From positions 1 through 64,000 of the forward strand of contig JAIPDO010000012.1 in the NCBI GenBank assembly GCA_021737645.1: a DNA stretch of 64,000 nucleotides, written 5' to 3'. The translations under genes were made by a program, and so were the position numbers. Shown here piece by piece: positions 14,167-33,304 of the stretch; the stretch's first letter is position 1; each line of letters begins with the position of its first letter. A model generated the notes under the pieces. It saw only the letters and a program-made list of their open reading frames with translations. It was not told the DNA's origin and ran no database searches. Origin of the DNA: Desulfarculaceae bacterium. GTDB lineage: Bacteria > Desulfobacterota > Desulfarculia > Desulfarculales > Desulfarculaceae.

Positions 14167-14191
14167 GCACAACCTCCAAACTATGTGCGGG

Positions 14192-14764: not shown

Positions 14765-14789
14765 GGATTCCATCCTTTAGTTGCCCGCA

Positions 14790-14810
14790 TCTTAACCCGG
14801 CACAGCCAGC
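14790..14810. repeat. Direct repeat flanking isochorismatase gene, right copy
   Basis: TCTTAACC + CGGCACAGCCAGC, the partner of the copy at 14147-14166. It lies between the isochorismatase start and the glutamate dehydrogenase stop. Confidence 0.6.
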
Positions 14811-14818
14811 CGGTAATG

Positions 14819-16084: not shown

Positions 16085-16219
16085 GATGTTCTCCCTGGGT
16101 TAAGGAAGTGTTTGTTTCAGGCCGATCTTATTTTAGCAGATGCGGGCCGGGCCCATTGCTACCGGTGATTTTCTGCTCTAATCTGGAACTGCGGGCAACT
16201 TTTTCAGCAGGGAGAGGCG

Positions 16220-16861
16220 ATGCGGGCGGTGAACCTCAAGGCCAAACGGCAGGGCTGGATCGCCCTGGGAGCCATGACCGCCCTGGCCGCCCTGCTGTTC
16301 TATTTCGCCTTCGGCTTCTCCGGGGGCAATTTCTGGCTAAAGATCGCGGCCACCGCCCTTATCCTCACCGTAGCCTCCCTGTCCCTCAGGCCCCCGGTGC
16401 CCGGCGGCCTGGCCTTTCGGCCCTCGGACCTCGCGTGGGGCCTGGCCTCGGCGGCGGTGCTGTGGCTTGTCTTTTGGCTGGGCAAGGCGGTGAGCACCCA
16501 GATCTTCCCCTCTTTGGCCGGCCAGGTGGGGGCCATCTACGCCAAGGGCCAGGGCACGTCCCAATGGCTTATCGCACCGCTTTTGTTCTTTATAATCGGG
16601 CCTTGCGAGGAGCTTTTCTGGCGGCGCTACATGCAGGCCGGGCTCATGGAGCGCCTGGGCCCGCTAAAGGGCTGGCTGTGCGCCACCGGGCTCTACACCC
16701 TGGTGCACTTGCCGTCGCTCAATATCATGCTCATGGGAGCGGCCGCCGTGGCCGGGGCCTTCTGGGGGCTGCTCTACTGGCGGTTGGGGCGCATACCGCC
16801 GGTGATCATCTCCCACGCCGTGTGGACTACCACGGCGTTCGTACTGCTACCGATTCCATAG
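16220..16861 (+). CDS. CPBP-family intramembrane metalloprotease
   Basis: 213 residues with about six hydrophobic segments. The CPBP/Abi signature is visible: motif 1 CEELFWRRY (Glu130-Glu131, Arg135), motif 2 His163 in LVHLPS, and a later His in VIISHAVWT. These are the metal- and catalytic residues of the family (CAAX protease and bacteriocin-processing enzymes). The substrate is unknown. A GGGAGAGGCG site precedes the ATG. The stop codon is followed immediately by a 108-bp palindromic repeat. Confidence 0.87.
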   Translation: MRAVNLKAKRQGWIALGAMTALAALLFYFAFGFSGGNFWLKIAATALILTVASLSLRPPVPGGLAFRPSDLAWGLASAAVLWLVFWLGKAVSTQIFPSLAGQVGAIYAKGQGTSQWLIAPLLFFIIGPCEELFWRRYMQAGLMERLGPLKGWLCATGLYTLVHLPSLNIMLMGAAAVAGAFWGLLYWRLGRIPPVIISHAVWTTTAFVLLPIP

Positions 16862-16862
16862 A

Positions 16863-16970
16863 GTCGGCATAGCCAGACGCCCTATAGCTGCGCCCACGGC
16901 GTCACTAGGTCCTCGACGTAGCTTTACTACGCCTCCGGCCTGCGCTCGCCGGCCGCCTGGCTATGCCGAC
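16863..16970. repeat. Dispersed intergenic repeat, copy 2 (best preserved)
   Basis: A 108-bp element bounded by inverted termini: GTCGGCATAGCCAG at 16863-16876 and its exact complement CTGGCTATGCCGAC at 16957-16970. Inside are GCTGCG, GGCGTCACTAGGTCCTC, the small hairpin GACGTAGCTTTACTACGCC, and GCCTGCGCTCGCCGG. It lies between two genes with no open frame and has the form of a MITE- or REP-like element. Confidence 0.75.
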
Positions 16971-19896: not shown

Positions 19897-20370
19897 CTAC
19901 TGCCAGGTGTAATCGAACTTGCAGACCTCGTCGCCCTGGCCGATAAAGACGGGGCGCTCCAGATGCAGCCGGGGGGAATAGCCCCGGGCGAAGGCGAAGT
20001 CCCGGCAACAGGAAAGCACCGGCAACAGCTCCTCGGGCAGGCCCATTTCCCGGTACAGCTTCAGATAGCCGCAGCCGGTCACGGTGAGGCTCATGCGGCC
20101 CTCTTCCAACTCATAGCCCTCGGTCTCCAGGGAGCCGGGAACGGCCATCAGCCGGTCCCAGATGGTGGCGAAGTGCTCCAGGCTGGGCCCGGCCTTGGCC
20201 TCGGCGGCAAAGGCCTTGCCCGCCTCCTCGGCGGTCTGCTCCACCATCTGGGTCATCACCGCCAGGGCCTCTTCTTGGCCCAGGCGCTGGCGCAGCACTC
20301 CATAAACCTGGGCCAACACCGTGGCCTCTATCTCCCGGCGCACCAAAAGGGGAACTTGGTTGACGTTCAT
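19897..20370 (-). CDS. L-2-amino-thiazoline-4-carboxylic acid hydrolase-family protein
   Basis: 157 residues resembling the ATC hydrolase family (PF14196): N-terminal RREIEATVLAQVYGVL, central TVTGCGYLKLYREMGLPEEL, CRDFAFARGYSPRLHLERP and the C-terminal GDEVCKFDYTW. Conserved cysteines (CGY, SCCRDF, VCKF) fit the family, whose name comes from a Pseudomonas enzyme of cysteine synthesis. Most members are anaerobe proteins of unknown role. The actual substrate here is unproven. Confidence 0.68.
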   Translation of the reverse strand: MNVNQVPLLVRREIEATVLAQVYGVLRQRLGQEEALAVMTQMVEQTAEEAGKAFAAEAKAGPSLEHFATIWDRLMAVPGSLETEGYELEEGRMSLTVTGCGYLKLYREMGLPEELLPVLSCCRDFAFARGYSPRLHLERPVFIGQGDEVCKFDYTWQ

Positions 20371-20447
20371 GGCGGTCCTCCCGACATCAGATGGTGTTTG
20401 TCAGATAGGCCCAGCTTGCCTCATGGGCCTTCGCGGCGCAACAAAGA

Positions 20448-20481
20448 GATTCGCCGCCCGGCCGGGGCCGGACGGCGAATC
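20448..20481 (-). terminator. Terminator hairpin after thiolase operon
   Basis: GATTCGCCG / CGGCGAATC outer stem with an inner CCGGCC / GGCCGG pair; on the minus strand it is followed by TCTCTTTGTT. It lies about 40 bases beyond the thiolase stop codon and marks the end of the leftward catabolic operon. Confidence 0.7.
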
Positions 20482-20522
20482 ATCATGCAAGGGTACGGGG
20501 ATCGGAGCAGGCTGGTTATTGG

Positions 20523-21716
20523 TCAGGAAACCTTGAACACCACCGCGGCGGCGGTGTCGCCCGCGGCGCAGCCCGCGAACAGGCCGTAGCCGCCGCCCTT
20601 TAGCACCAACTCTTCGATCATCTCCACCATGCAGCGCGCCCCGGTGGGCCCCTGGGGATGGCCGAAGATCATGGAAGAGCCGTAGTTGTTGAAGATGTCG
20701 TCCGGGATGTTCATGAGGCGGCCCATGATGATGTCGTTGATGGTGAAGGGGTTGTGGGTCTTCACCGCGGCCAGGTCCTTGACCTCCAGGCCGGCGTTTT
20801 TTAGAGCCATCTGGGCCGCCGGGGTCACCGCCGCGGCCATGCGGGCCTTGGCCGCCCGGCCGTAGCCGTAGGAGAGGATCTGGATGGTCACGCTCTTGTC
20901 GGAAGAGAGTTCCTTGGCCTTGTCCTGGGTGGTGACGATGAGCCCGGCGTTGCCGTCGGCCGGGTGGGTCTGGGCCCCGAAGGTCAGCGCGCCGTCGGGC
21001 AGGATGGGCCTCAAGGAGGCCAGGCCCTCGGCGGTGGTGGGCGTGATGCCCTCGTCGGCCTCCACGGTGACGGTCTTTTTCTTGCTGAGCTTTATGTCCA
21101 CCGGGATCATGTAGCCCTTTTGGAAGGCCCGGTCATCGGCCAGGGCCATCTGGTACTGCTCGTAGCGCCGAAGCGCCAGGGCGTCGGATTCTTCCTTGGT
21201 GACCCCGCCGTTGTCCTTGCCCACCAGCTCGGCGGTCATGAACATGGCCTCGCCGCCATAGGGGTCCTTGTTGAAGTTGTCCATCATCCAGTTTTCGCTG
21301 ATCACCTCGGCGCCGGGCCCCTTGGGGTTGGGCCACACGGTGTGGGGGCCGTTGGAGCAGCGGTCGGTGGTGGCCACCAGGTTGCACTCGTGGGCTCCGC
21401 ACTCCAGCCCGGAGGCGGCGGCATAGAGCGCGGTGGCGCTGGTGGCGCAGGCCTGGCTCACGGTTGGGCCTGAGATGCGGTCGTTGCCCATTAGGGCGCA
21501 GTACCAGGGGTTGGCGTAGAACCAGGACGGCATGCCGATGGTCATGCCGAAGGTGCAGCCGTCGAAAACTTTGGGGTCGATGCCCCTGAGCTCCAGGAAC
21601 TTTTTGGTGGTGGCCGCGGCCAGTTTTACCGGGTGCTCGTTTTGAAACGATCCCTGCCAACGGGAAAAAGGCGAGGACCAGTACCCCTTGTGGGGGACAA
21701 AGGCTTTGCTGAACAT
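20523..21716 (-). CDS. Thiolase-family acyl-CoA acyltransferase
   Basis: 397 residues of the thiolase superfamily, the usual subunit length. The nucleophile is Cys90 in SQACATSATAL, the catalytic His lies in FGHPQGPTGAR (about 355), and a second Cys is in FAGCAAGDTAAAVVF near the C-terminus. The sequence around these residues differs from standard acetyl-CoA acetyltransferases (for example NPFTINDIIMG in place of NEAFA), so a nonstandard substrate is likely. It is the last gene of the leftward operon with acyl-CoA ligase, dehydratase activase and dehydratase subunit, which suggests thiolytic cleavage of a 3-oxoacyl-CoA made by that pathway. Confidence 0.82.
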   Translation of the reverse strand: MFSKAFVPHKGYWSSPFSRWQGSFQNEHPVKLAAATTKKFLELRGIDPKVFDGCTFGMTIGMPSWFYANPWYCALMGNDRISGPTVSQACATSATALYAAASGLECGAHECNLVATTDRCSNGPHTVWPNPKGPGAEVISENWMMDNFNKDPYGGEAMFMTAELVGKDNGGVTKEESDALALRRYEQYQMALADDRAFQKGYMIPVDIKLSKKKTVTVEADEGITPTTAEGLASLRPILPDGALTFGAQTHPADGNAGLIVTTQDKAKELSSDKSVTIQILSYGYGRAAKARMAAAVTPAAQMALKNAGLEVKDLAAVKTHNPFTINDIIMGRLMNIPDDIFNNYGSSMIFGHPQGPTGARCMVEMIEELVLKGGGYGLFAGCAAGDTAAAVVFKVS

Positions 21717-21789: not shown

Positions 21790-23367
21790 TTATTTGTCGG
21801 ACCAATGGCCGTAGCGGTCCCGAAGCACCCGGTGCAAAATCTTGCCGGTGCCGGTGCGGGGCATCTCGTCCTCGGGCACGAAGTGGATATTCTTGGGCCG
21901 CTTGAATCCGGCTATCTTGCCCTTGGTGAACTCGCTGAGCTCCTTGGCCAGCTCCGGGCCGTGCTCGTAGCCCTGGTGGGTGATGACCACGGCGGTGACG
22001 CTCTCGCCCCACTTGTCGTCGGGCACCCCGATCACCGCCACGTCCTTGACCGCCGAGTGACCGCCCAGGCAGTCCTCCACCTCGCTGGGGTAGACGTTTT
22101 CCCCGCCGGTGATGATCATGTTTTTCTTGCGGTCGACCAGGTAGTAGTAGCCCTCCTCGTCCATGTAGGCCATGTCGCCGGCGCTGAAGAAATCGCCCAC
22201 AAAGGAGTCTTTGGTCACCTCGGGCAATTTCCAGTACTCGCTGAACATGGCCGGGCCCCGGGAGTAGAGCTCGCCCACCTCGCCCACGGGCACCTCGTTA
22301 TGGTCTTCGTCCAACAGCTTGATAAGGTCGGTGCCGGGAATCTCGCGGCCGATGGAGCCCAGCTTGTCGAACTGCTCCGAGGGCAGCAGCAGGGTGACCA
22401 GACCGGCCTCGGTGGAGCCGTAGGCCTCGTAGAGTTGGCTGTTGGTGAAGTATTCCATGATGGACAACTTCAGGTCGCGCCGGGCCGGGGCCGAGGAGAT
22501 GAGGAGCTTCTTGACGCAGTCCACGTTGTACTTGGCTTTAACTTCCTCGGGCAGAGCCAGCATCATGATGTAGTGGGTGGGCACCAGGGATGTGAAGGTG
22601 ATGCCGAACTCGCTGAGGGTCTTGATCATGTGCTCGGCGTCGAAGGACACCGAGTTGTAGACCACGGCGGTGGCCCCCAGGCAGGTGAACACAAAGGAGT
22701 AGAACACGCTGTTGATGTGGCACATGGGCATGACCAAAAGTCCCCGGTCGTCCCGGTCGTAGCCCATTGCCGCGATGTTGGTCCAGTATTTGCCAGCCAG
22801 GGACTCGTGGGTGCGCACCACGCCCTTGGGGCGGCCGGTGGTGCCGGAGGTGTACATGACGATCCAGGTGTCCTCGTCATACACCTTGGTGGCTGGCTCC
22901 TCGGGCGACCCAGCGGCGAACAACTCCTCCATGTGGGTGTAACCCTCCGGGGCCGCTCCCTCGCCAAAGTAGATGTATCCGTTGTCCGATATGGCTTCCA
23001 GGTCCGGCTTGGCGTCCATCACGTCGGCCGCGAAGGGCTTCTCCACGATGATGGCCTTGGTCTCGGAGTTGTTTAAGATGTAGGTGTATTCGGTGGGGGT
23101 CAGGCGGAACATGATGGGTACGGCCACGAAGCCGCCCTTGGCGCAGGCTCCGTAAAACTCCATCCACTCCAGGCAGTTGAAGGCCAACATGGCGATGCGG
23201 TCGCCCTTTTTGAGCCCCCGGTCGGCCAGGGCGTTGGCCAGGCGGCAGCAGCGCTCGTTGAATTGTTTGAAGGTCAAGGAACGCTTTAAATCCGCCACGC
23301 CCTCCTTGTCCGGAAACTTGATGGCGTTCACCCGAAGAATATCGGCCACGGTGAGCCAGCGGTTCAT
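21790..23367 (-). CDS. AMP-forming acyl-CoA synthetase/ligase
   Basis: 525 residues of the ANL superfamily. The P-loop is MYTSGTTGRPKGVVRTH (about 170-186), the adenine motif YEAYGSTEAG, and the C-terminal hinge YYLVDRKKNMIITGGENVYPSEVE with a final catalytic Lys in PRTGTGKILHR. It activates a carboxylic acid to the CoA thioester in the cytoplasm. The substrate is not predictable; operon context suggests the acid entering the dehydratase/thiolase route. It lies 73 bases upstream of the thiolase. Confidence 0.9.
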   Translation of the reverse strand: MNRWLTVADILRVNAIKFPDKEGVADLKRSLTFKQFNERCCRLANALADRGLKKGDRIAMLAFNCLEWMEFYGACAKGGFVAVPIMFRLTPTEYTYILNNSETKAIIVEKPFAADVMDAKPDLEAISDNGYIYFGEGAAPEGYTHMEELFAAGSPEEPATKVYDEDTWIVMYTSGTTGRPKGVVRTHESLAGKYWTNIAAMGYDRDDRGLLVMPMCHINSVFYSFVFTCLGATAVVYNSVSFDAEHMIKTLSEFGITFTSLVPTHYIMMLALPEEVKAKYNVDCVKKLLISSAPARRDLKLSIMEYFTNSQLYEAYGSTEAGLVTLLLPSEQFDKLGSIGREIPGTDLIKLLDEDHNEVPVGEVGELYSRGPAMFSEYWKLPEVTKDSFVGDFFSAGDMAYMDEEGYYYLVDRKKNMIITGGENVYPSEVEDCLGGHSAVKDVAVIGVPDDKWGESVTAVVITHQGYEHGPELAKELSEFTKGKIAGFKRPKNIHFVPEDEMPRTGTGKILHRVLRDRYGHWSDK

Positions 23368-23441: not shown

Positions 23442-24230
23442 TTATTCGCTCGCCAGTTGCCGGGCTCTAAAGTCCCGGGCCAGGATCGCCGCTCCCCAGG
23501 CGCCGTTTAGCTGAGGGCGGGGCGGCAGGAGCACTTGGCGTCCCAGCTCCAGGCTCAGCATCTCGGCCAGATAGGGGTTGTGGGCGGCGACTCCGCCGGT
23601 CATGACTACCGCGCCTTCAAAGATGTCCATTTCCATGACCCGCTTGACCACCGAGCGGAACAGGCCCTTGACCAGGGCCTGCACCTTTACGCCGTCGCGT
23701 ATCTTGGACAGCACTTCGGTGGCGGTGAATACGGTGCAATATGCTCCCAGGGTGGCTTCTTCGGTGGCCTCTTGGGCCAAGCCGTTCAGGCTTTCCAGAG
23801 GCAGATCCAGCCTCAGGGCCATCTCTTCCAAAAAGGCACCGGTGCCCGCCGCGCACTTGCGGTTCATCTTGAAAGAAGTGCGCAGCCCCTGGGCGTTGAG
23901 TTTGATGATTTTATTGTCCTGGCCTCCGATGTCCACCACGGTCAGCGCCTGGGGGAAGTGATAGTAGGCCCCGGCGGCGTGGCAGGCGATCTCGGTGCGG
24001 GTCTCCTGGGCCATGGCCGCGTTCTTGCGGCCGTAACCACAGGCGAAGATTCCCTCCACTTGCCCGGCGTCCAGACCGGCCTGGGCCAAAGCCTGGTCCA
24101 TGCCCTGCGCCGCGCTGGCGGTGAAGTCCACTCCCGAGCGCAACACAGCGCTGCCCAGGAGCTTGCCGGAGTCGTCTACGAGCGCCGCCTTGGTGGCGCT
24201 GGCCCCAATGTCTATGCCGCCGAAGACCAT
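23442..24230 (-). CDS. 2-hydroxyacyl-CoA dehydratase activase (HgdC/BadF family)
   Basis: 262 residues of the BadF/BadG/BcrA/BcrD ATPase family, the archerase that injects an electron into 2-hydroxyacyl-CoA dehydratases at the cost of ATP. Seen: phosphate-1 loop GGIDIGASATKAAL, DIGGQDNKI (99-108), NRKCAAGTGAFLE with cluster ligand Cys126, a second ligand Cys165 (AYCTVF), and MTGGVAAHNPYL. Two such subunits share one [4Fe-4S] cluster. The start codon overlaps the stop of the dehydratase subunit gene (TGATG), so the two are translationally coupled. Confidence 0.92.
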   Translation of the reverse strand: MVFGGIDIGASATKAALVDDSGKLLGSAVLRSGVDFTASAAQGMDQALAQAGLDAGQVEGIFACGYGRKNAAMAQETRTEIACHAAGAYYHFPQALTVVDIGGQDNKIIKLNAQGLRTSFKMNRKCAAGTGAFLEEMALRLDLPLESLNGLAQEATEEATLGAYCTVFTATEVLSKIRDGVKVQALVKGLFRSVVKRVMEMDIFEGAVVMTGGVAAHNPYLAEMLSLELGRQVLLPPRPQLNGAWGAAILARDFRARQLASE

Positions 24231-25465
24231 CAGGCGGCCGCTTCCTCGATCTGCTCCACAAAGGCCTCAAGGTTGGTCTTGGCCTGCTCGTCGCTGAAGC
24301 AGCGCAGGTCGTTGAGGTCGCCGTTGATGACCAAGGAGGGCACCCCGTGCACCTCGGCGAAACGCTGCGGCAGGCCATAGCGGCTGTTGGAGTTGTTGGG
24401 GCAGGTCTTGGCGTCGTGGAAGATGACGCCCTGGCAGCCGTAGCGCTCGATGTGCTCTTTCATGTAGGCCTCTTTGTAGGCCTCGTCGCGCACGATGAAC
24501 AGCTCGGTATAGGCCCGGGCCATGGACTCGAAGGGATCGTTGGCGTCAAAAGCGCCGAATATCCAGGAGTTGCAGTAGGTGGAGCAAACGATGGCCGCCT
24601 TGAGTTCGGTCATCAGCTCGCTGAGCATGCGCAGACGCCCCCACACCGGCATGCCGTCCCAATACAGGCGCATGCGCTCGCCGGGCACCGCGGAATAGCC
24701 CATCTTCTCGCGCTCCACCAACTCGGCCAGCAGGGTGTCGTAATACTCGATGGCCTCGGGGCGGCCCCGGAGCACCACCGCCGGGGCCATGTGGATGGTG
24801 TGGTCGAAGAAGTTAAGCTGGGCGGGCACCCGCGCGCCGTACTCCAGCACGCCGCGCCACTGCTCGGTGCACTGCTTGGATAGCCCCACCACCTCACGCA
24901 GGCGGTCGATATCGAACTTGTTGCCGCTGACCTTTTCCAGGGTGGGAATAAGGTCCTGTATTTGCTGGGCCACGTCGGCCACCATGTAATCACGAACCTC
25001 GCCCACGCCCCGGTGGGTGCGCACCCCGATGGCCGGTACATCGAAGTGGCGGCCATACCACTCGAACCAGTCCTGCACGTCGCGGCACTGGTTGGTGTTG
25101 AACACCAGCACGTCTGGTTTGGGTACGCCCTTGATGCCGTAGGCTCTGGTCAAGGGAGTGATTCCTTTGAGAAAAGCACCAACATCGGCGGTGAGGTAGG
25201 AGCATATTTCCGGGCTATATCCGAGGGCGTTGGCCACCGGTATGGTGTCGGTGGCCATACGGGAAGCGCCCAACATGGCCCCGTGGTTCTCAGGGTAGTA
25301 GACTTCGAAACCCATGGCTATAAGCAGCTCGGCCGGGCCTACGCTGGTGCACCAGGCCACCTTGGGGCTGCCCTCGGCGGCGGCGCGGTCCAGGGCCAAA
25401 AAGTGGTCGGCCATGAGCTTTTTCATCATTTTGGTCGCTTGAATCGGTGGTGTTTTTTCAGACAT
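24230..25465 (-). CDS. 2-hydroxyacyl-CoA dehydratase subunit (HgdB/FldC-like)
   Basis: 411 residues of the 2-hydroxyglutaryl-CoA dehydratase D-component family (also benzoyl-CoA reductase BcrB/C-like). Cysteines likely to bind a [4Fe-4S] cluster include Cys39 (AWCTSVGPAELL), Cys88 (SPEICSYLTADVG) and the later Cys in FHDAKTCPNNS. Known enzymes are heterodimers; only one such subunit is encoded here, next to its activase. The missing partner may lie elsewhere, or this may work as a homodimer. It is the promoter-proximal gene of the operon, under a strong promoter with an operator-like palindrome. Confidence 0.87.
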   Translation of the reverse strand: MSEKTPPIQATKMMKKLMADHFLALDRAAAEGSPKVAWCTSVGPAELLIAMGFEVYYPENHGAMLGASRMATDTIPVANALGYSPEICSYLTADVGAFLKGITPLTRAYGIKGVPKPDVLVFNTNQCRDVQDWFEWYGRHFDVPAIGVRTHRGVGEVRDYMVADVAQQIQDLIPTLEKVSGNKFDIDRLREVVGLSKQCTEQWRGVLEYGARVPAQLNFFDHTIHMAPAVVLRGRPEAIEYYDTLLAELVEREKMGYSAVPGERMRLYWDGMPVWGRLRMLSELMTELKAAIVCSTYCNSWIFGAFDANDPFESMARAYTELFIVRDEAYKEAYMKEHIERYGCQGVIFHDAKTCPNNSNSRYGLPQRFAEVHGVPSLVINGDLNDLRCFSDEQAKTNLEAFVEQIEEAAA

Positions 25466-25553
25466 GACTTAGCCTCCGGCCTATGCGACACTTTGCCGCC
25501 GTGCAAGGCCGGAAACACGGCAAAGCGGGCCAAAAATGGTAGACACGTGGTTA

Positions 25554-25580
25554 CAAGTTAGCTACAATCTAGCTAACTTG
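25554..25580. promoter_or_regulatory. Perfect palindromic operator between divergent operons
   Basis: CAAGTTAGCT (25554-25563) and AGCTAACTTG (25571-25580) are exact inverted repeats separated by ACAATCT. The 27-bp site begins one base downstream of the leftward -10 hexamer and covers the expected transcription start. A TetR- or GntR-type repressor bound here would block the dehydratase operon. No regulator gene is adjacent. Confidence 0.8.
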
Positions 25581-25581
25581 C

Positions 25582-25610
25582 ACTATAGGCAGGCCCGTCT
25601 GGCTTGTCAA
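25582..25610 (-). promoter_or_regulatory. Strong sigma70 promoter of the dehydratase operon
   Basis: On the minus strand TTGACA (25610-25605), a 17-base spacer and TATAGT (25587-25582): six of six and five of six consensus matches. The palindromic operator follows immediately. Confidence 0.82.
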
Positions 25611-25716: not shown

Positions 25717-26790
25717 TTGACCAACGCCCAATTGGACACGCCGGTCTTGATCCTTGGTGGCGGAGTGGCCGGGTTGGCCGCGGCGGTGGACCTGGCCCGC
25801 CGTGGTGTGGCCGCCACCCTGATAGAGCGGGAGCCCCGCCTGGGGGGGAGGGCTTCCCAGTTCTGTTGCAAGGCCACCGAAGCCTGCGCCCGCTGCGGGG
25901 CCTGCCGTTTGGGCGAGTTGCTCGCCCAGGCCGCCCAACTGCCGCAAATCACCATTTATACCGCGGCCTTGGCCGTGGCGGCCCAGCCCCAAAACGACGG
26001 CTGGCAGGTGGATCTGGCTCCCCAACCCGGCGGCGAGATCGGCCCCGGTGCGGGCCGTCCCCTGCGCGAGCGCACCACTTTGAACACCCAGGCGGTGATC
26101 CTGGCGGTGGGCGGCGGGGCCTTCAATCCGGCGGGCAAGACCCGTTTTGGCCACGGCCGGGTCCAGGGGGTGTTCAGCGCCCTGGAACTGGAGGCCATGC
26201 TGTCCCAAGGGGCCTTGGGACCGGATGGCCTGGCTCCGGCCAAGGTGGCTTTCATCCAGTGCGTGGGCAGCCGCGACGCCTCGTTGGGCCGCTTATGGTG
26301 CTCCAGGGTCTGTTGCGGCTACGCCTTGCGCATGGGCCGGGTCATCCGCAAGCTGTTGCCCGATAGCGAGGTCACCTTCTTCCATATGGATGTCCAGGAC
26401 TACGGACGGGCCTGGGAGGACGAGTTGCCCCTGATGCGCCATCAGATGCGCTTCGTCAGGGCCATGCCCGGCGAGGTGACCGCCGGGGACGGCGGGCCCC
26501 AGGTGACCTACGCCCTGGCCGGAGAGCAGGCCCAAAAAGAGGGCTTCGACCTGGTGGTGCTTTCGGTGGGCCTGGGGCCGCCCAACGGGGCCTCGGCCCT
26601 GGGCGAGCTTTTCGGCGCGGCCAAGGACGATGACGGATTTTTGACCGCCGATGGTGGCCCCGCCGGGGTGTTCGTGGCTGGGGCGGCGGCTGGTCCCCGG
26701 TCCCTGAACGAGTCCATAGTGCACGCGGGGCTGGCCGCTTCGGCGGCGGCGGTGCGGGTGGCCTCTCTCACGGAGGCGCGCCATGGCTAA
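25717..26790 (+). CDS. HdrA/QmoA-like FAD flavoprotein
   Basis: 357 residues from a TTG at 25717 preceded by CGAGG; an earlier TTG at 25660 has no ribosome site. The FAD fold VLILGGGVAGLAAAVDLARRG (10-30) is followed by a cysteine cluster CC-x5-C-x2-C-x2-C (Cys50, 51, 57, 60, 63), as in HdrA/QmoA, and then the HdrA hallmark IQCVGSRD...CSRVCCGYA. Ferredoxin domains are absent, as in QmoA. HdrA-type proteins pass electrons between flavin and iron-sulfur clusters and can bifurcate them. It overlaps the next gene by 8 bases. The local set QmoA-like, QmoB-like, HdrC, HdrB resembles versions of Qmo in which HdrCB replaces the membrane subunit QmoC. Confidence 0.85.
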   Translation: MTNAQLDTPVLILGGGVAGLAAAVDLARRGVAATLIEREPRLGGRASQFCCKATEACARCGACRLGELLAQAAQLPQITIYTAALAVAAQPQNDGWQVDLAPQPGGEIGPGAGRPLRERTTLNTQAVILAVGGGAFNPAGKTRFGHGRVQGVFSALELEAMLSQGALGPDGLAPAKVAFIQCVGSRDASLGRLWCSRVCCGYALRMGRVIRKLLPDSEVTFFHMDVQDYGRAWEDELPLMRHQMRFVRAMPGEVTAGDGGPQVTYALAGEQAQKEGFDLVVLSVGLGPPNGASALGELFGAAKDDDGFLTADGGPAGVFVAGAAAGPRSLNESIVHAGLAASAAAVRVASLTEARHG

Positions 26791-28639
26791 GCTCAGCTTG
26801 CTTTGGGTGGACACGCCTGGCCTGGAAGACCTGGACCCGGCGCTGGTGGCCAAGGCCGCCGGAATGGCCCTGGACCAGGGCGGCCTGCTGGAAGCGGCGG
26901 TGGTGACCACCTCCCAGGAGCAGGCCCCTGCTGCGGTGCGTCAGCGTTTGATGGGACTGCCGGTGGCTTGGCTGGAACTGGCCGCCGAGGTGGGCGGCGG
27001 ACCTGAGGCCCATCGCCTGGCCAGGGCGGCGGTGGCGGTGTCGCGCGCCGCCGGGCGGGCGGCCAAGGGCACCCTGCCTCCGGTGTATGCCCCCCAGCCC
27101 GCCCAGAGCGTGCTGGTGGCCGGGGCTGGCTACAGCGCCCTGGCCGCGGCCTGGGAAGCGGCGGCCATGGGCCATCCGGTCACCCTGGCCACGCCTTTTG
27201 ACTCGGTTGACCAGGCCGGGGCCGACGACGACCCCGAGGCGGTGAGCCTGTTGGCCGCCCAGCTACCCGCCCAGGTGGACCTGGCCCCCAATAGCGAACT
27301 GACCCGCCTCACCGGCGCGGCGGGCGGTTTCAACGCCTGGCTTTCCACCAACGGCGACGCGCCCCAGACCTACGGCGCGGTGTTCCTGGCCCCGTCCGGC
27401 GAACTGGTCGTGGGCTGCGAGGTGGACGGCCTGGACCCGGCGCTGTGCCGGCCGGTAAGTGGGCTCAACCCCGAGGACTTTGCCGGGCCTGAGGACGGCT
27501 GGCTGCATGTGGCGGTTTTGGCCGGCACCGCCGAGGCCGTTCCATCCTATAGCTTCAGCGCCGCCATGCAGGCGGCCCTGGCCCTGGCCGAGAGGCCCAA
27601 GGTGCAGGTGAGCCTGCTGTTCTCCGAGGCGCGAGTGGCCGCGCCCGGCGGGGAGAAGCTCTTCCGCGATTGCCGCGAGGCCGGGGTTCTGGCCGTGCGG
27701 GTGGGGCCGGGCAAGCTGGAGGTGCGCCAGGGCGGCCGCGAACTGGCCTGGGCCGACCCCCTGCTGGGCGAGGAGCTGGAGTTGGCCCCGGCGGCCATTG
27801 TCTTGGCCGAGCAGGCCACGGCTGCCAGGCCCGCCTGGCTGGACAATGACCTGCTAGTCAAACCCTGGGACGAGCTGGTTCCCGACAACCCCCGCCTGGC
27901 CGGGGGGCGCACCAGCCGCACCGGGCTGTTCATCACCGGCGCCCTCAGGGGCACCTCCCCAGGCGAAGCCCGCCGGGACGAGGCCGCTTCCGCCGCCGCG
28001 GCCATGCACCAGGCGCTCACCGGCAAGGTGGTGCCCATGCCCGCGGTGCGCGACAACTTTTGCGCCAGCTGCCTTACCTGCGTACGCACCTGCCCCCACG
28101 GGGTGCCCCGTTACACAGTGGACCACATCCAGTGCGCCCCGGCCGGTTGCGTGGCCTGCGGGGCCTGCGCGGCGGAGTGCCCGGCCGAGGCCATAGCCCC
28201 GCCTAGCTGGGGCAACCCGGAGATGTTCTCCAGCCTGGAGTGGGGCCTGGCCCTGGCCCCGGAGCCCAAGATGGTGCTTTTCGCCTGCGCCGCCTCGGGC
28301 ATGCCCGCCGTGACTTCTCTCTCGGCCCAGGGCCACCAGTGGCCCGCCGGTCTGGTGATCTACCCCCTGGTATGCGCCGCGCGCATGAGCCAGCTACTTT
28401 TGCTGCGTGCCCTGGAAATGGGAGCCCAGCGGGTGCTGGTGGCGGGCTGCCATCCCGGCAACTGCCGCTCGATCACCGGCAACCACAAGGCCATGGCCAA
28501 GATCGCCTCCTTGAGCGGCGAATTGGCCGCTTTGGGCCTGCCAACCGACGCCCTGGAGTTTCTGCCTCTGGCCAGCAACCAGACCAGGGAGCTGGCCTCG
28601 GCGGTGCGGGCCATGGCCCAAAAGGCGGGGGAGGAATAA
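26783..28639 (+). CDS. HdrA-FlpD/MvhD fusion (QmoB-like)
   Basis: 618 residues. Residues 1-100 look like an HdrA N-terminal domain that has lost its cysteines. A second Rossmann segment QSVLVAGAGYSALAAA (about 110-125) is degenerate for FAD. Two [4Fe-4S] ferredoxin motifs follow at about 428-470 (CASCLTCVRTCP and CVACGACAAECP). The C-terminal 120 residues are an MvhD/FlpD domain (VLFACAASG, CAARM, VLVAGCHPGNC). This order matches QmoB and HdrA-MvhD fusions, which connect an electron donor to HdrA. The fusion implies direct docking of a donor without a separate MvhD. It overlaps the previous gene, and HdrC follows 2 bases after the stop. Confidence 0.85.
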   Translation: MAKLSLLWVDTPGLEDLDPALVAKAAGMALDQGGLLEAAVVTTSQEQAPAAVRQRLMGLPVAWLELAAEVGGGPEAHRLARAAVAVSRAAGRAAKGTLPPVYAPQPAQSVLVAGAGYSALAAAWEAAAMGHPVTLATPFDSVDQAGADDDPEAVSLLAAQLPAQVDLAPNSELTRLTGAAGGFNAWLSTNGDAPQTYGAVFLAPSGELVVGCEVDGLDPALCRPVSGLNPEDFAGPEDGWLHVAVLAGTAEAVPSYSFSAAMQAALALAERPKVQVSLLFSEARVAAPGGEKLFRDCREAGVLAVRVGPGKLEVRQGGRELAWADPLLGEELELAPAAIVLAEQATAARPAWLDNDLLVKPWDELVPDNPRLAGGRTSRTGLFITGALRGTSPGEARRDEAASAAAAMHQALTGKVVPMPAVRDNFCASCLTCVRTCPHGVPRYTVDHIQCAPAGCVACGACAAECPAEAIAPPSWGNPEMFSSLEWGLALAPEPKMVLFACAASGMPAVTSLSAQGHQWPAGLVIYPLVCAARMSQLLLLRALEMGAQRVLVAGCHPGNCRSITGNHKAMAKIASLSGELAALGLPTDALEFLPLASNQTRELASAVRAMAQKAGEE

Positions 28640-28641
28640 CC

Positions 28642-29139
28642 ATGCGGCTCAACGACTGCGATCCCGGCTTCAAGCATGAAGTGGCCGCCGAGCCCGGCGG
28701 GGCGGGCATCCGCGCCTGCTTCGCCTGCGCCGCGTGCAGCGCCCGCTGTCCGGTGGGGGCCAACCGCCCGGCCTACGACCCCCGCCGCATCATCCGCCTG
28801 ACCCTTTTGGGCAGGCGCGAGGAGGTCTTGGCCTCGCCGCTGATCTGGTTGTGCTCCTCCTGCTACTCCTGCGGCGAGGTGTGCCCCCAGCAGGTGCGCT
28901 TCACCGAGGTGCTCACCGCCATCAAGAACATCGCCGCCCGTGAAGGCCACGCCCCGCCCTCGGCCAAGATAACCGCCGAGCTTTTGGCCAAGCAGGGCCG
29001 TTTGCTGGAGGTCACCGATTTCGAGAACGACAAGCGCTCCGGCCTGGGGCTGCCCCCGGTACAGCAGCGCCCCGAAGACTTCCAGGCCATCCTGGGCCTG
29101 AAGCCCAGTGAGGGCGAGGCCGGGGAGGAGCCGCGATGA
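28642..29139 (+). CDS. hdrC: HdrC-like iron-sulfur protein
   Basis: 165 residues with two [4Fe-4S] motifs: Cys26/29/32/36 (CFACAACSARCPV) and Cys71/74/77/81 (CSSCYSCGEVCPQQ). This is the HdrC layout, a soluble electron relay between HdrA and HdrB. The start at 28642 has GGGGGAGGAATAACC just before it; the same frame is open much further left but that part overlaps the HdrA-FlpD gene. The end overlaps the hdrB start by 4 bases. Confidence 0.92.
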   Translation: MRLNDCDPGFKHEVAAEPGGAGIRACFACAACSARCPVGANRPAYDPRRIIRLTLLGRREEVLASPLIWLCSSCYSCGEVCPQQVRFTEVLTAIKNIAAREGHAPPSAKITAELLAKQGRLLEVTDFENDKRSGLGLPPVQQRPEDFQAILGLKPSEGEAGEEPR

Positions 29140-30011
29140 AGGCGTTGTTGTTTTTGGGCTGCACCGTGCCGGTGCGCAATCTCAACTACGAGCTCAGCGC
29201 CCGCAAGGTGTGCGAAGTCCTGGGCGTGGAGCTGGTGGACGACCAGTCCCTGGCCTGCTGCGGTTACCCCCTCAAGGGCACCGACCAGGCCCACGCCCTG
29301 ACCATCGCCGCCAGGGCCCTGGCCCAGGCTAGGGCCCACGGCCTGCCCCTGGTGGCTTTGTGCTCGGCCTGCGCCGGCACCCTGGCCGAGGCGGAGCATC
29401 ACCTGGCCCACCACCCCGAGGCGGCCAAGCGGGTCAACGCCGAGCTGGCCCCCCTGGGCCTGGAATACGCGCCCGGCGTGCGGGTGACCCATCTGGTGCG
29501 CTATCTCTTGGAAGATGTGGGACTGGAGGCCATCCGGGCCAAGATGACCCGCGACCTCAGCGAGTTCACCTTCGCCCCCCACTATGGCTGTCACTACCTG
29601 AAGCCCGCCGAAATCATCGGCGGCCCGGACGACCCCGAGGCCCCCACCAGCATGGGCGAGCTTATCGAGGCCACCGGGGCCAAGGTGGATAACTACCCCC
29701 GGCTCAAGGACTGCTGCGGGGGCGGGGTGCTGGGGGCGGATGAAGACCTGGCCGGGTCCCTGGCCGGGGCCAAGCTGGCCGAGCTTAACGCCCGGGAAGT
29801 GACCGCCATGGTCTTGGTGTGCCCCTTCTGCAACGTGATGTACGAGGGCCAGCAAAAGGCCATCGCCAAGCGCATGGAAACCAAATTCAAGGTGCCGGTG
29901 GTGTACCTGACTCAGGTGCTGGGCCTGGGCCTGGGTCTCACACCCGACGAGTTGGGCTTCAAGCTGAACCGGGCCAAACCCAAGGCTCTGTTGGCCGCTT
30001 TTAAGAGCTAG
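29136..30011 (+). CDS. hdrB: HdrB-like heterodisulfide reductase catalytic subunit
   Basis: 291 residues with two CCG (DUF224) domains. The first: LACCGYPLKG and LCSACAGTL. The second: HYGCHYLKP, KDCCGGGVLG and CPFCNVMYEG. These cysteines assemble the noncubane [4Fe-4S] clusters that reduce CoM-S-S-CoB in methanogens. In a bacterium the disulfide must be another one, for example DsrC or a lipoyl protein. The sequence starts MKALLFLGCTVPVRNLNYEL, typical of HdrB. Both CCG motifs are intact, so it should be catalytically competent. It is the last gene of the tight hdr block. Confidence 0.92.
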   Translation: MKALLFLGCTVPVRNLNYELSARKVCEVLGVELVDDQSLACCGYPLKGTDQAHALTIAARALAQARAHGLPLVALCSACAGTLAEAEHHLAHHPEAAKRVNAELAPLGLEYAPGVRVTHLVRYLLEDVGLEAIRAKMTRDLSEFTFAPHYGCHYLKPAEIIGGPDDPEAPTSMGELIEATGAKVDNYPRLKDCCGGGVLGADEDLAGSLAGAKLAELNAREVTAMVLVCPFCNVMYEGQQKAIAKRMETKFKVPVVYLTQVLGLGLGLTPDELGFKLNRAKPKALLAAFKS

Positions 30012-30119
30012 GCGGGTGGCGCGGCCGGGGCTATTCTATAAGAAAAAACTTTTGCCGAATACGGGCTGTTAAACGACTTAATGACACCCCTACGGGGGTT
30101 GGCGAGGAGGATGGCGTCC

Positions 30120-30548
30120 ATGGAAATAGGCGGCTATAATTTTCCCGACGATCTCTACTACGACCAAAACCATTACTGGGCCAAGGTGGAGGACGGCGTG
30201 GTGATCATGGGCACCACCGACCTCACCCAAAAGCTGGCCGGGGAAATCACCTTTGTGGACGTGCCCGAAGAGGACGACGAGGTGACCCAGGGCAAGCCCT
30301 TCGGCTCCATCGAGAGCGGCAAGTGGGTGGGCCGGGTATACGCCGTGGTCTCCGGCGAGGTGGCCGAGGGCAACGAGGAGTTGGAGGACGAGCCGGAGCT
30401 GATCAACTCCGACTGCTACGGCCAGGGCTGGATCTGCAAGATCACCCCCAGCGACCTGACCGGCGACCTGTCCAAGCTGATGCAGGGCGAAGCCTACAAA
30501 CAGTGGGTGAGCGCCGAGATCGAGAAGGCGGAAAAGGACCAGGCTTAG
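30120..30548 (+). CDS. GcvH-like lipoyl-carrier protein
   Basis: 142 residues from an ATG at 30120; GAGGAGG lies 9 bases upstream, while an ATG at 30111 touches it. The fold is that of the glycine cleavage H protein, with the lipoyl-lysine motif SIESGKWVGRVYAVVSGEV (Lys68). The C-terminal part (GWICKITPSDL, GEAYKQWV) also fits GcvH. No gcvT, gcvP or lipoate ligase is in the window. Next to hdr genes it recalls lipoate-binding proteins (LbpA) that work with sulfur-oxidising Hdr-like complexes. A role as dithiol carrier to HdrB is inference; a normal glycine-cleavage H protein is the alternative. Confidence 0.85.
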   Translation: MEIGGYNFPDDLYYDQNHYWAKVEDGVVIMGTTDLTQKLAGEITFVDVPEEDDEVTQGKPFGSIESGKWVGRVYAVVSGEVAEGNEELEDEPELINSDCYGQGWICKITPSDLTGDLSKLMQGEAYKQWVSAEIEKAEKDQA

Positions 30549-30650
30549 GGGCTAAGAGTGCACGCCTCTTGGCCATATCGATATTGTTTCGCAGCCATGG
30601 GGAGCCGGGGCCTTTGGCCCCGCACCTATGGCCCGGATAGGTTCGCCAAA

Positions 30651-30687
30651 GGCGGGGAGGGCGTTTGCGCCCTCCCCGCCGGTTTTT
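30651..30687 (+). terminator. Strong hairpin/terminator between lipoyl protein and GlcDF genes
   Basis: A perfect 13-bp stem GGCGGGGAGGGCG / CGCCCTCCCCGCC with a 4-base loop is followed by GGTTTTT. It ends only 29 bases before the ATG of the next gene, so it may act as an attenuator as well as a terminator. A smaller hairpin GGGGCC-TTT-GGCCCC lies at 30607-30621. Confidence 0.8.
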
Positions 30688-30715
30688 GGCGCGGGCTGGG
30701 ATAGGAGGAAGAATC

Positions 30716-33304
30716 ATGGATATCAACCAAAGACTTGCCGAGATCGTGGGACAGGAGAACCTAATCACCAACCAGGCCGACTGTCAGGCCTACAGCCGGG
30801 ACATGTCGGTGCACATGGCCCCGCCCCAGGTGATGGTATTCGCCGAGACCACCGAGCAGGTAAGCGAGATTCTGGCCGCCTGTCACCAGGCCGAGGTGCC
30901 GGTGATCGCCCGCGGCGGCGGCACCAGCGTAACCGGCGCGGCCCTGGCTCCCAAGGGCGGGGTGCTGCTGAACCTCATCCGCATGAATAAAATCCTGGAG
31001 ATCAACCTGCCCGACCACTACGCCAGGGTGCAGTGCGGGGTGGTCTGCGGGGCGCTAAACGCGGCGGTGGCCGAAAAAGGCTTCTTCTTCCCGCCGGATC
31101 CGGGCAGCGCGGGCATCGCCACCATCGGCGGCATGATCAGCACCAACGCCAGCGGCATCCGGGCGGTGAAGTACGGCACCACCAAGGACTACGTAATGGC
31201 GCTGAAGGTGGTCTTGGCCGACGGCCGCATCCTGGACACCGGTTCCAAGGCCCCCAAGACCTCCAGCGGCTACAACCTGTCCCAGCTTTTCTGCGCTTCG
31301 GAGGGCACCCTGGGGGTGGTCACCGAAGCCACCATGAAGATTCTGCCCGCCCCGGCCTACGCCATCAGCGCCCGTCTGGAGTTTCCGGACATTCAGAGCG
31401 CCGGTGACGCGGTCACCGAGATGCTCACCACCGGCGTGCCCATCGCCACCTGCGAGATTCTGGACAACATCTCCATCGCGGTGCTGGCCAAGGCCATCGA
31501 CCTGAAGGTGGACGAGGGCGTGGGCTGCATGATCATGCTGGAGTTGGACGGTCACAAAACGGCGGTTCAGGACTACGTGAAGCAGGTGGACGCCATCGCG
31601 GCCAAGCACGGCATCTTAAACGCCAAGTGGACCGACGACCCGGTGGAAAAGGCTCCCCTGTGGGAGGCCCGCCACCGCCTGGTCCCGGCCATGAGCCGCC
31701 TCAAGCCCGGCTATCGCCTGGTGCCCCTGATGGAAGACTTCGGGGTGCCCATGACCAAGATCCCCGAGACCATCCGCCAAATTCAGGCCATCGGCGAAAA
31801 ACACGGCTTCCCCATCGCCACCTTCGGCCACATCGGCGACGGCAACTTGCACGCCACCTTTATCATGGATGTGAAAAAGGCCGACGAGTGGGACGCGGTG
31901 AAAAAGATCGTGCTGGAGTTCGTGGAACTGACTGCCTCCATGGAAGGCACCATGAGCGCCGAGCACGGCCTGGGCATGGCCAAGTCGCCGGTGATAATGG
32001 CCGAGCTGGGGGCCACCGGCATGGAGGTGATGCAGACCATCAAGGACGCCCTGGACCCCAAGGACATCCTGAACCCCGGCAAGATGGGCCTCCGGGATTC
32101 CATCGATGACGTGTACGACACCAGCGGCTTCGAGCCGTTGCGCACCGGCTCCCTGGACGTGGCCAGCTTCGGCGAGGTGGACAACGAGATAGTGGCCTGC
32201 ATCCAGTGCGGCTTCTGCCGCCTGGGCTGCCCCACCTACGCCCAGACCGACCTGGAGTCCATGAACGCCAAGGGCCGCATCACCCTGGCCTTCAGCCTTT
32301 TGTCCGGGCAGATGGAGCCCTCGGCGGACATGGCCGAGCGCCTGTACAAGTGCATGCTTTGCCTCAACTGCAAGTACACCTGCCCGGCCCAGATCAACGT
32401 GGCCTCCGTGGTACAGGCCGCCCGCCAACGCCTGGTGGAAAAGGGCTTCCTGCCCGAGATATTCGTCAAGCTCATGAGCGACATGGTCGAGGCGGGCAAC
32501 CCCTTCAGCATGCCCCGGGACACCCGCACCGACTCCTATCCCGTGGGCTACGAGGCCAAGCCGGGGGCGGACACCATGCTGCACCTGGGCTGCGTGGCCT
32601 CCTACCAGGACGTGAAGATCATCCCCGCGGTTATGAAGATTCTGGACGCGGCGGGCATCGACTTCACCACCCTGGGCAAGGATGAGAACTGCTGCGGCTA
32701 CCTGGCCTATCTGGTGGGGGACATGGACACCTTCCACACCGTGGCCGCGGCCAACGACAAGATTTTCAAGGAACAGGGCGTGGGCACCCTGCTCACCACC
32801 TGCGCGGGCTGCTACAAAACCTTTGAGGACGTCTATCCCCACCAGGGGCACGGTGACGGCTACAAGCCCGAGCATGTGGTATTCCTCTTGGAGCGGCTCA
32901 TCAACGAGGGCAAGCTGAACTTCAAGGACGACGGCAAGCCCATGAAGGCCATCTACCACGATCCCTGCGACCTGGGCCGTCACCTGGGGGTGTACGAGCC
33001 GCCGCGAGAAGTGATCAAGGCCCTACCCGGGGTGGATCTCTTGGAATTCCCCCAGAACCGCACCCTGGCCAAGTGCTGCGGCGGCGGCGGCGGGGTAAAG
33101 GCCTTTGCCAACGAGCTGGGCGGGGACATCGCCTTTGAGCGCATCAAGGCGGCCATCGCCCAGGGGGCGGACACCGTGGTCAGCGCCTGCCCCTCCTGCA
33201 AGAACTCCCTGAACCAGGCCGCGGCCCGGGCCCGCAAAGAGAAGCTGGGCAAGGTCAAGGTCCTGGACATCACCGAGCTGGTGGCCTCGCGCCTGGCCAA
33301 ATAG
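30716..33304 (+). CDS. FAD-linked 2-hydroxyacid dehydrogenase fused to iron-sulfur subunit (GlcD-GlcF type)
   Basis: 862 residues. N-terminal FAD_binding_4 domain (about 35-210: ARGGGTSVTGAAL, DPGSAGIATIGGMISTNASG), FAD-oxidase C domain (about 220-455: FGHIGDGNLH), two [4Fe-4S] motifs at about 508-565 (CIQCGFCRLGCP, CMLCLNCKYTCP), and two CCG domains at the end (ENCCGYLAY, CAGCYKTF, KCCGGGGGV, CPSCKNSL). The parts equal GlcD plus GlcF, so it should oxidise D-lactate, glycolate or another 2-hydroxyacid. Its C-terminal CCG domains resemble HdrD/HdrB and suggest electron transfer to thiol/disulfide or Hdr partners. The ATG follows GAGGAAG. Confidence 0.92.
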   Translation: MDINQRLAEIVGQENLITNQADCQAYSRDMSVHMAPPQVMVFAETTEQVSEILAACHQAEVPVIARGGGTSVTGAALAPKGGVLLNLIRMNKILEINLPDHYARVQCGVVCGALNAAVAEKGFFFPPDPGSAGIATIGGMISTNASGIRAVKYGTTKDYVMALKVVLADGRILDTGSKAPKTSSGYNLSQLFCASEGTLGVVTEATMKILPAPAYAISARLEFPDIQSAGDAVTEMLTTGVPIATCEILDNISIAVLAKAIDLKVDEGVGCMIMLELDGHKTAVQDYVKQVDAIAAKHGILNAKWTDDPVEKAPLWEARHRLVPAMSRLKPGYRLVPLMEDFGVPMTKIPETIRQIQAIGEKHGFPIATFGHIGDGNLHATFIMDVKKADEWDAVKKIVLEFVELTASMEGTMSAEHGLGMAKSPVIMAELGATGMEVMQTIKDALDPKDILNPGKMGLRDSIDDVYDTSGFEPLRTGSLDVASFGEVDNEIVACIQCGFCRLGCPTYAQTDLESMNAKGRITLAFSLLSGQMEPSADMAERLYKCMLCLNCKYTCPAQINVASVVQAARQRLVEKGFLPEIFVKLMSDMVEAGNPFSMPRDTRTDSYPVGYEAKPGADTMLHLGCVASYQDVKIIPAVMKILDAAGIDFTTLGKDENCCGYLAYLVGDMDTFHTVAAANDKIFKEQGVGTLLTTCAGCYKTFEDVYPHQGHGDGYKPEHVVFLLERLINEGKLNFKDDGKPMKAIYHDPCDLGRHLGVYEPPREVIKALPGVDLLEFPQNRTLAKCCGGGGGVKAFANELGGDIAFERIKAAIAQGADTVVSACPSCKNSLNQAAARARKEKLGKVKVLDITELVASRLAK

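Follow-up and report, generated by a model that had tools for sequence, protein, structure and literature searches.

A GcvH-like lipoyl protein lineage linked to Hdr-type and D-2-hydroxyacid dehydrogenase CCG enzymes in Desulfobacterota, and its candidate role as a dithiol carrier

CCG-domain proteins of the HdrB/HdrD type catalyse disulfide reduction or its reverse, an activity established for HdrB. To our knowledge, the natural disulfide partners of Hdr-like CCG proteins are largely unknown in bacteria that lack coenzyme M (CoM) and coenzyme B (CoB), DsrC and LbpA being the cases that can be named. Here we describe a GcvH-like lipoyl protein encoded in a six-gene block within 64,000 nucleotides of the genome of a Desulfarculaceae bacterium (assembly GCA_021737645.1, contig JAIPDO010000012.1, positions 1 to 64,000 of the forward strand; hereafter the window). 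The other five genes encode an HdrA-like flavoprotein, an HdrA-FlpD fusion, HdrC, HdrB and a GlcD-GlcF fusion dehydrogenase (GlcDF). Because its lineage is tied to CCG enzymes at 73 of 82 loci, this lipoyl protein is a concrete candidate for such a disulfide partner.

Several described systems come close, and we draw here on the accessible portions of the papers cited. LbpA is a GcvH-like protein that is essential for sHdr sulfur oxidation and has genetic links to CCG proteins as well as to lipoate ligases (PMC6067878); LipS1 and LipS2 occur beyond sulfur oxidisers too (PMC10332631). QmoAB and HdrBC are known to stand beside aprAB without QmoC in Desulfotomaculum, which is the same four-part electron-transfer set as in our block, where it adjoins a lipoyl protein and GlcDF instead (PMC3569383). 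For the Ehe cluster of Culexarchaeia, the lipoyl disulfide of GcvH has been proposed as a possible unknown partner of HdrB (PMC9723716), and LarG of Pelobacter carbinolicus has been proposed to be a lipoyl electron carrier (PMC3543383); two papers on Geobacter genomes contained nothing relevant on LarG. Complexes of HdrA and CCG proteins occur in syntrophic sulfate reducers, for which the accessible text does not describe lipoyl proteins (PMC10553843). Among the papers listed in searches of the openly accessible literature, from which subscription papers and preprints are mostly absent, none links a GcvH-like lipoyl protein with GlcD or GlcF as a system. The first-pass annotation of this DNA had singled out the arrangement as possibly undescribed; this stands insofar as we found no report of the lineage or of its GlcDF partner, and is tempered by the related ideas published for Culexarchaeia, LarG and sHdr-LbpA.

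All six genes that the first-pass annotation had placed here are open throughout, lie on the plus strand and fall in the families it had named (Table 1). The HdrA-like protein scores far under the HdrA2 cut-off for full-length HdrA and matches the solved HdrA structures PDB 8rvv (E = 7.6e-50) and 6tjr (E = 1.3e-36); the FlpD domain of the fusion (75.3 bits) covers residues 498-614. Two complete CCG motifs, of the noncubane Fe-S type, are kept in all 14 HdrB proteins examined. GlcDF combines an FAD-dependent D-2-hydroxyacid dehydrogenase with two [4Fe-4S] sites and two complete CCG motifs, and 24 motif residues examined, including both CCG motifs and the HxGDGNxH and EHG sequences (which we take to be motifs of GlcD/LDHD-type dehydrogenases), are invariant in 18 of 18 aligned proteins. 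Its predicted structure is of middling confidence (predicted local distance difference test score 75.8, low around residues 783-798), and the GlcD half matches the D-lactate dehydrogenase mLDHD (8jds; template modelling score 0.92 over the target). Since the best 50 of 822 Foldseek matches span about the GlcD half, sequence is the basis for the fold of the CCG half. Among the 19 window proteins scanned (about 13 to 38.5 kb, with some frames outside the scan), there is no QmoC, hydrogenase or Flx family, in agreement with the earlier annotation, and no Mvh, Flx or Fdh input module of a bifurcating HdrABC; Pfam gives HdrC and HdrB Fe-S and CCG domains only.

The genome holds eight matches to the Pfam GCV_H family. 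One (L025) sits in a full, Pfam-confirmed gcvT-H-PA-PB operon elsewhere, and five, the window protein included, are of one lineage; the gene start of the window protein at 30120 is conserved among relatives. The four sister copies adjoin separate GlcD and GlcF genes, and of these four GlcD-GlcF-lipoyl clusters, which the first-pass annotation had not covered, three lie beside transporter genes and two have a cytochrome b. Their neighbours are TctA, TauE, 2-oxoacid oxidoreductase and succinyl-CoA-ligase-like genes (L027), TRAP transporter genes with a NarI-like cytochrome b (L028 and L029), and NuoF-like and molybdenum hydroxylase genes (L030). Not every GlcD has a lipoyl partner, as no GcvH-like gene occurs within the 11-12 kb read around the GlcD-like genes on contigs C8, C114, C66 and C64. 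A further contig, C27, has at its end genes for a CCG protein and a lipoate ligase, which come after the lipoyl gene in relatives.

A profile of nine lipoyl proteins (alignment A1, with the lipoyl lysine invariant in all nine rows) gave 32 loci from named genomes; across 297 genomes of the phylum it matched 58 times, in 46 genomes. Forty-seven of the 58 were fetched, the other 11 being five from this genome, five blocks from the relatives that share the island and one equal to L059. The 32 and the 47, less two duplicates (L163 and L198), plus the five loci of this genome make up 82 loci with one entry each; the complete blocks L047 and L049 stand outside this count. The loci are not independent, with close relatives and paralogues among them, and the profile was built from CCG-linked members, although gene context played no part in retrieval. 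As controls (n = 15) we used the 12 best Pfam GCV_H matches outside the lineage, mostly from gcv operons, and the three other GcvH-like loci of this genome. Genes were called by a simple script, and neighbours were labelled by their best BLAST match among reference proteins taken from this genome and from a handful of relatives.

A tryptophan directly follows the lipoyl lysine in 81 of 81 lineage rows and in none of the 15 controls, so that the Lys-Trp pair is a simple marker for separating lineage proteins from true GcvH in automatic annotation; the lipoyl site of one locus (L086) reads ASKW. The tree was built from 101 GcvH rows minus five (the two duplicates and the short rows L084, L087 and L088). 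One starred branch (100/99) separates 14 of the 15 canonical or control rows from all others, and the fifteenth, L031, has a very long branch outside both groups. L031 (6560-7444) is a 294-residue GcvH-like protein whose aligned lipoyl site has no lysine. The window protein is one of 34 rows in a starred set (97/93) made up mainly of HdrCB and fused-GlcDF types, and the separate GlcD-GlcF types form another set of 28 rows (100/98); adjacency to a CCG gene changes six times on the tree, which has few alignment columns for its number of rows. The TIGR00527 gcvH model barely accepts the window protein (116.8 bits against a cut-off of 115.85) and just fails a paralogue on C111 (113.3). By motif and tree, the window protein is thus a member of a lineage separate from glycine-cleavage GcvH, a distinction absent from the first-pass annotation.

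CCG proteins, recognised by their cysteine pattern independently of any reference, lie within 2.3 kb of the lipoyl gene at 73 of the 82 loci, compared with none of the 12 control loci and none of the three other GcvH-like loci of this genome. When homologues are counted out to 7 kb, the CCG type is Glc only at 45 loci, Glc plus HdrCB at 19 and HdrCB only at 9. A lipoate-protein ligase homologue lies within 7 kb at 33 of 82 loci compared with 1 of 15 controls, and Pfam confirmed the ligase in all seven scanned (L059, L062, L081, L063, L065, L066 and L067). LipS2-like genes occur near 15 and LipS1-like genes near 9 of the 82 loci; beside the window lipoyl gene we saw no lipoate ligase, LipS1 or LipS2. 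In Desulfocicer vacuolatum (L062), the order is lipoyl gene, ligase, LipT-like, LipS1-like (207.7 bits, cut-off 230), alkyl-sulfatase-like and LipS2-like (217.2 bits, cut-off 270). Homologues of NarI-like cytochrome b lie within 7 kb at 33 loci, and LarA-like lactate racemase genes at five (L060, L090, L156, L181 and L185; 27-41% identity to the L090 query).

Some loci differ in content. Those without a CCG neighbour are L086 and L180, in which the lipoyl gene is near a contig end, L159, whose relative L157 does have a CCG match, and six loci with an IQSRKW motif (L183, L184 and L187-L190). This sub-lineage carries a HisD-like gene (recognised by eye; L190 is too short) and a lipoate ligase, with no CCG protein, and a LipS2-like radical SAM gene stands beside five of the six; in four other rows with the IQSRKW motif, a CCG gene does lie nearby. 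The CCG-less group possibly represents yet another lipoyl function. An Actinomycetota metagenome-assembled genome (MAG; L090, 91-10077) has, in one run, microcompartment-shell-like proteins (by eye), LarA, GlcD, GlcF, the lipoyl protein and a RACo-like protein. The cytochrome b homologue in the GlcD-GlcF-lipoyl cluster of a Bryobacterales MAG (L060, 4815-6464) also matches multihaem cytochrome c7-like models. A wide spread of the lineage over phyla is not supported: only that MAG is positive among 297 genomes of its phylum, and the few other MAGs may therefore reflect transfer or contamination.

The block is one half of a ten-gene divergent island, a context that the first-pass annotation had not included, and its minus-strand half extends to 20523 (Table 1). 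The dehydratase aligns with PDB 3o3m_A (E = 1.1e-47) at C88, C127 and C355, presumably the cluster ligands, and at the serine of the TSV motif, which we take to be the catalytic serine of HadB. With its activase, this protein thus has the HadB-like residues of HadBC-HadI; within the island, a single HGD-D gene and no second (beta) subunit is recognised in the window and its relatives. None of the 25 matches listed for the acyl-CoA ligase against NCBIfam acyl-CoA ligase subfamilies is above cut-off. A class-wide search for HdrA-FlpD (E <= 1e-60, 63 genomes) found it in 14 genomes, every one from the same family (14 of its 20 genomes). All ten genes occur in identical order in nine of the 14, the window included, and the remaining five islands end at contig ends with no gene missing from the visible part; conservation in relatives, which the first-pass annotation had proposed as a check, is thus established, and identical order in 13 further genomes places the island far beyond chance.

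Table 1. Features of the island, in window coordinates
Feature	Position	Strand	Details
Thiolase	20523-21716	-	Pfam Thiolase_N/C; catalytic Cys and His motifs seen by eye; place conserved among relatives
Acyl-CoA ligase (AMP-binding)	21790-23367	-	Pfam
Acyl-CoA dehydratase activase (ASKHA ATPase)	23442-24230	-	TIGR00241 202.6 bits (cut-off 125.4)
2-Hydroxyacyl-CoA dehydratase, HadB-like single subunit	24230-25465 (start 25429 or 25465)	-	HGD-D 217 bits
Divergent overlapping promoter-like sites with palindrome	25540-25610	both	core 25558-25576, TTAGCTACAATCTAGCTAA
HdrA-like FAD protein, QmoA-sized	25717-26790	+	357 residues; GGGVAG FAD motif; HdrA2 183.5 bits
HdrA-FlpD fusion, QmoB-like	26783-28639	+	618 residues; two CxxCxxCxxxC sites
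HdrC	28642-29139	+	165 residues; TIGR03290 102.9 bits (cut-off 160)
HdrB	29136-30011	+	291 residues; two CCG domains; TIGR03288 206.7 bits (cut-off 345)
GcvH-like lipoyl protein, Lys-Trp lineage (IESGKWVG)	30120-30548	+	Pfam GCV_H 135 bits; motif, tree
Terminator-like hairpin, then T run	30651-30680	+	13 pairs, 12 G-C; -31.4 kcal/mol; between lipoyl gene and GlcDF
GlcD-GlcF fusion (GlcDF)	30716-33304	+	862 residues; FAD_binding_4, FAD-oxidase_C, Fer4, two CCG domains

Outside the family, the same HdrA-FlpD threshold recovered 7 of 395 genomes of the phylum, all of the same family. Confinement of the block to one family is partly an effect of that threshold and was rejected, as four loci elsewhere share the architecture. 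L171 (family f15) has HdrA, HdrA-FlpD (FlpD confirmed), HdrC, HdrB, the lipoyl gene, GlcDF, HGD-D, activase and ligase; L172 and L169 of the same family have most of these, and L186, from another family, runs from HdrA through the lipoyl gene. Identities of these four to the window are 48-54% for HdrC, 54-58% for HdrB and 32-39% for HdrA (for L171, 51% for HdrC and 58% for HdrB).

The two halves of the island meet at two overlapping sigma-70-like sites that face in opposite directions around a palindrome; such pairs were found 3 times in 9.2 kb compared with 0.9 expected. Of 12 intergenic regions that could be read, 11 have the palindrome core unchanged (it is altered in L056; two more genomes are cut), and 0.02 chance matches with at most two mismatches are expected in the window. 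A genome-wide regulon was rejected: the genome has a single exact match to the core, and once up to two mismatches are allowed a reversed control pattern is about as frequent (5 against 4), so the palindrome looks local. The conserved, shared promoter region argues that both operons answer to one regulator, and the two halves are probably co-regulated. Elsewhere in the window, plus-strand frames at 14183-16165, 16108-16869 and 19963-20586 have no family match and are probably not genes. A 1,539-residue open frame (46211-50830, plus strand) has no Pfam match at E 1e-8, and a 1,402-residue protein (54708-58916, plus strand) with two BcrAD_BadFG activase stretches and DUF2229 is a second protein of acyl-CoA dehydratase/activase type.

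Taken together, we give a probability of roughly 0.6 to the reading that the island encodes a soluble (R)-2-hydroxyacid pathway in which the lipoylated GcvH-like protein is a mobile dithiol/disulfide electron carrier. GlcDF would interconvert a D-2-hydroxyacid and its 2-oxoacid at FAD and pass electrons through two [4Fe-4S] clusters to its CCG site, which would reduce (or, in reverse, oxidise) the lipoyl disulfide of the carrier. The carrier would next meet the CCG site of HdrB, and HdrB with HdrC, HdrA and HdrA-FlpD would link it to another pool, perhaps ferredoxin or, through FlpD, NADH. Enzymes of the divergent operon would form the CoA ester and convert it by dehydration to the enoyl-CoA, with the thiolase as the last step. 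Lipoylation of the window protein, electron transfer between CCG site and lipoyl group, and the coupling of both operons in one pathway are steps that we infer. Most contexts of the lineage bring together a CCG protein and a protein bearing a disulfide cofactor, frequently accompanied by a ligase gene; most simply, then, the CCG site would act on the lipoyl disulfide as its substrate.

Lactate/pyruvate has a potential of about -190 mV and lipoamide one of about -290 mV. Oxidation of the hydroxyacid is the direction favoured by the transporters, LarA-like genes and cytochrome b of the sister clusters; the opposite course, in which a 2-oxoacid is reduced and the product is then activated with CoA and dehydrated, would fit the divergent operon equally and is easier by these potentials. 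The proposal in the first-pass annotation that 2-hydroxyacid oxidation is coupled to a disulfide/dithiol carrier remains the best reading in its coupling, with the lipoyl protein the likely carrier; either direction may hold. Electron bifurcation, which it also suggested, is here too no more than a possibility. Two loci (L198 and L083) have no HdrA beside HdrC, HdrB and the lipoyl gene, and NarI-like cytochrome b homologues lie at 33 of 82 loci.

Several observations weigh against this reading. Nine of the 82 loci have no CCG neighbour, and nine have HdrCB with no Glc gene within 7 kb (L088 is cut by a contig end). The window has no lipoate ligase among the proteins scanned. By the potentials given above, electrons would have to climb about 100 mV to pass from hydroxyacid to lipoamide, and DsrC could instead be the CCG partner in this organism. 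The HdrA-FlpD proteins of L169, L171, L172 and L186 are closer to a copy on contig C52 of our genome (192-218 bits) than to that of the window (131-138 bits), and so are not clear orthologues. HdrA and HdrA-FlpD are missing from L198, which has both island halves with no room for them, and from L083, which has the dehydratase, activase, HdrC, HdrB and lipoyl gene only. Together with the Glc-less HdrCB loci, L198 and L083 indicate that the six genes are not an obligate unit; their contents point to HdrCB and the lipoyl protein as the core, with an adjacent flavin module not obligatory. Finally, a hairpin separates GlcDF from the lipoyl gene. GC-rich hairpins (by a loose criterion) occur in 12 of 12 lipoyl-GlcDF gaps examined, and a tail with a run of at least five T only in the window, L050, L051 and L053. 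GlcDF may therefore be a separate or attenuated transcript, which makes a single six-gene transcript doubtful.

Two alternatives fare about equally, and we consider both improbable. The first holds that the lipoyl arm carries a chemical group and not electrons, being either a carrier of a sulfur species, as proposed for LbpA, or the bearer of a (2-hydroxy)acyl thioester formed by the adjacent ligase for the dehydratase and thiolase. The precedent of LbpA, a GcvH-like protein with ties to lipoate ligases as well as to CCG proteins (PMC6067878), speaks for it, as do the acyl-CoA ligase homologues of at least 50% identity that lie within 7 kb of the lipoyl gene at 21 of 82 loci, the window included. 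The conserved cysteine pair of LbpA (N- and C-terminal, as given in the accessible text of PMC6067878) is in 0 of 81 rows, judged over BLAST-matched stretches, which speaks against sulfur transfer, as does the absence of TusA, DsrE and rhodanese families among the 19 window proteins scanned. Membership in LbpA was rejected on the missing pair, with the published description of LbpA as the basis of comparison; a search of plasmids for LbpA gave only GcvH-labelled or unlabelled places among the matches listed (25 of 157 records). Homologues of HGD-D lie within 7 kb at only 13 of 82 loci and thiolase at 1 (the window thiolase lies further off), so that an acyl-carrier role leaves the other loci unexplained.

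The second alternative, to which we likewise assign a low chance, is that the Hdr block, as a spare QmoAB-HdrCB copy, and GlcDF, on a separate transcript and using DsrC or quinone, are independent and that their neighbourhood is catabolic clustering only. The hairpin ahead of GlcDF and those in the gaps of relatives are in keeping with this, as is a distantly related AprBA-QmoAB-HdrCB-like set about 31 kb downstream on the same contig. Its aprA (C96:64448-66274) begins about 0.4 kb past the window end, and the region read around it (L225, C96:62000-80000) has aprB-aprA-qmoA-qmoB-hdrC-hdrB-like genes by BLAST labels and order, with HdrCB in the place of QmoC, an arrangement already described for Desulfotomaculum. 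The block lacks linkage to an adenosine 5'-phosphosulfate reductase gene, and the apr-linked QmoA, QmoB, HdrC and HdrB-like proteins are 22-40% identical to those of the block over aligned parts; the block is therefore a second set of QmoAB-HdrCB-like genes, divergent from the apr-linked one, rather than the apr partner. Independence is countered by the conservation of gene order across genera and of the architecture in another family, by the recurrence of the lipoyl lineage beside each enzyme type separately, and by the apr-linked set, which has no GcvH-like gene in the 18 kb read.

Slightly less likely still is that the lipoyl protein is an accessory GcvH, either a spare glycine-cleavage H protein or a lipoyl relay to other enzymes, which its narrow pass of the gcvH model and the known relay roles of GcvH (PMC6067878) would allow and which is opposed by the full gcvT-H-PA-PB operon elsewhere, by gcvT or gcvP homologues within 7 kb of 0 of 82 lineage loci (gcvPA lies near 10 of 15 controls), and by the distinct motif and tree position. 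A role in glycine cleavage was rejected on the same gene context, motif and tree, which speaks against the objection raised in the first-pass annotation that the protein might serve a normal glycine cleavage system encoded elsewhere.

Beyond this island, we put at a little under even odds a broader proposal, in which the Lys-Trp H-like proteins are a general protein-borne dithiol carrier of many Desulfobacterota, serving GlcF or GlcDF and HdrB much as CoM and CoB serve methanogens. They would be loaded by their own lipoate ligase and LipS1/LipS2, and one pool would join D-2-hydroxyacid dehydrogenases, soluble Hdr and membrane cytochrome b modules. The conserved island suggests that the lipoic acid bound to this protein carries electrons, apart from its textbook role; if true, lipoate would gain a second non-classical function, one in how sulfate reducers metabolise lactate-like acids.

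Among described systems, the locus resembles sHdr-LbpA in having a lipoyl protein of GcvH type with genetic ties to Hdr-like CCG proteins; the lipoate ligase and LipS1/LipS2 genes of that system have counterparts here near some related loci, and none was seen beside the window gene. It differs from that system, as far as the available text describes it, in having one HdrB and one HdrC and in its link to D-2-hydroxyacid dehydrogenases, and the genome has AprA and Qmo-like genes in the manner of sulfate reducers (PMC6067878, PMC10332631). The Culexarchaeia Ehe cluster is an archaeal membrane hydrogenase cluster; the accessible text names GlcD only as a lactate dehydrogenase in another context and gives no description of the Lys-Trp lineage or motif (PMC9723716). 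LarG is linked to the Act complex and dihydrolipoamide dehydrogenase and not, in the portion available, to Hdr or GlcDF (PMC3543383). The GlcD half of GlcDF shares its FAD dehydrogenase fold and motifs with mLDHD (8jds), LctD of Ldh-EtfAB (7qh2_C) and GlcD; unlike these, GlcDF is fused to a GlcF/HdrD-like CCG half, and it is proposed to work with a lipoyl protein in place of Etf or quinone.

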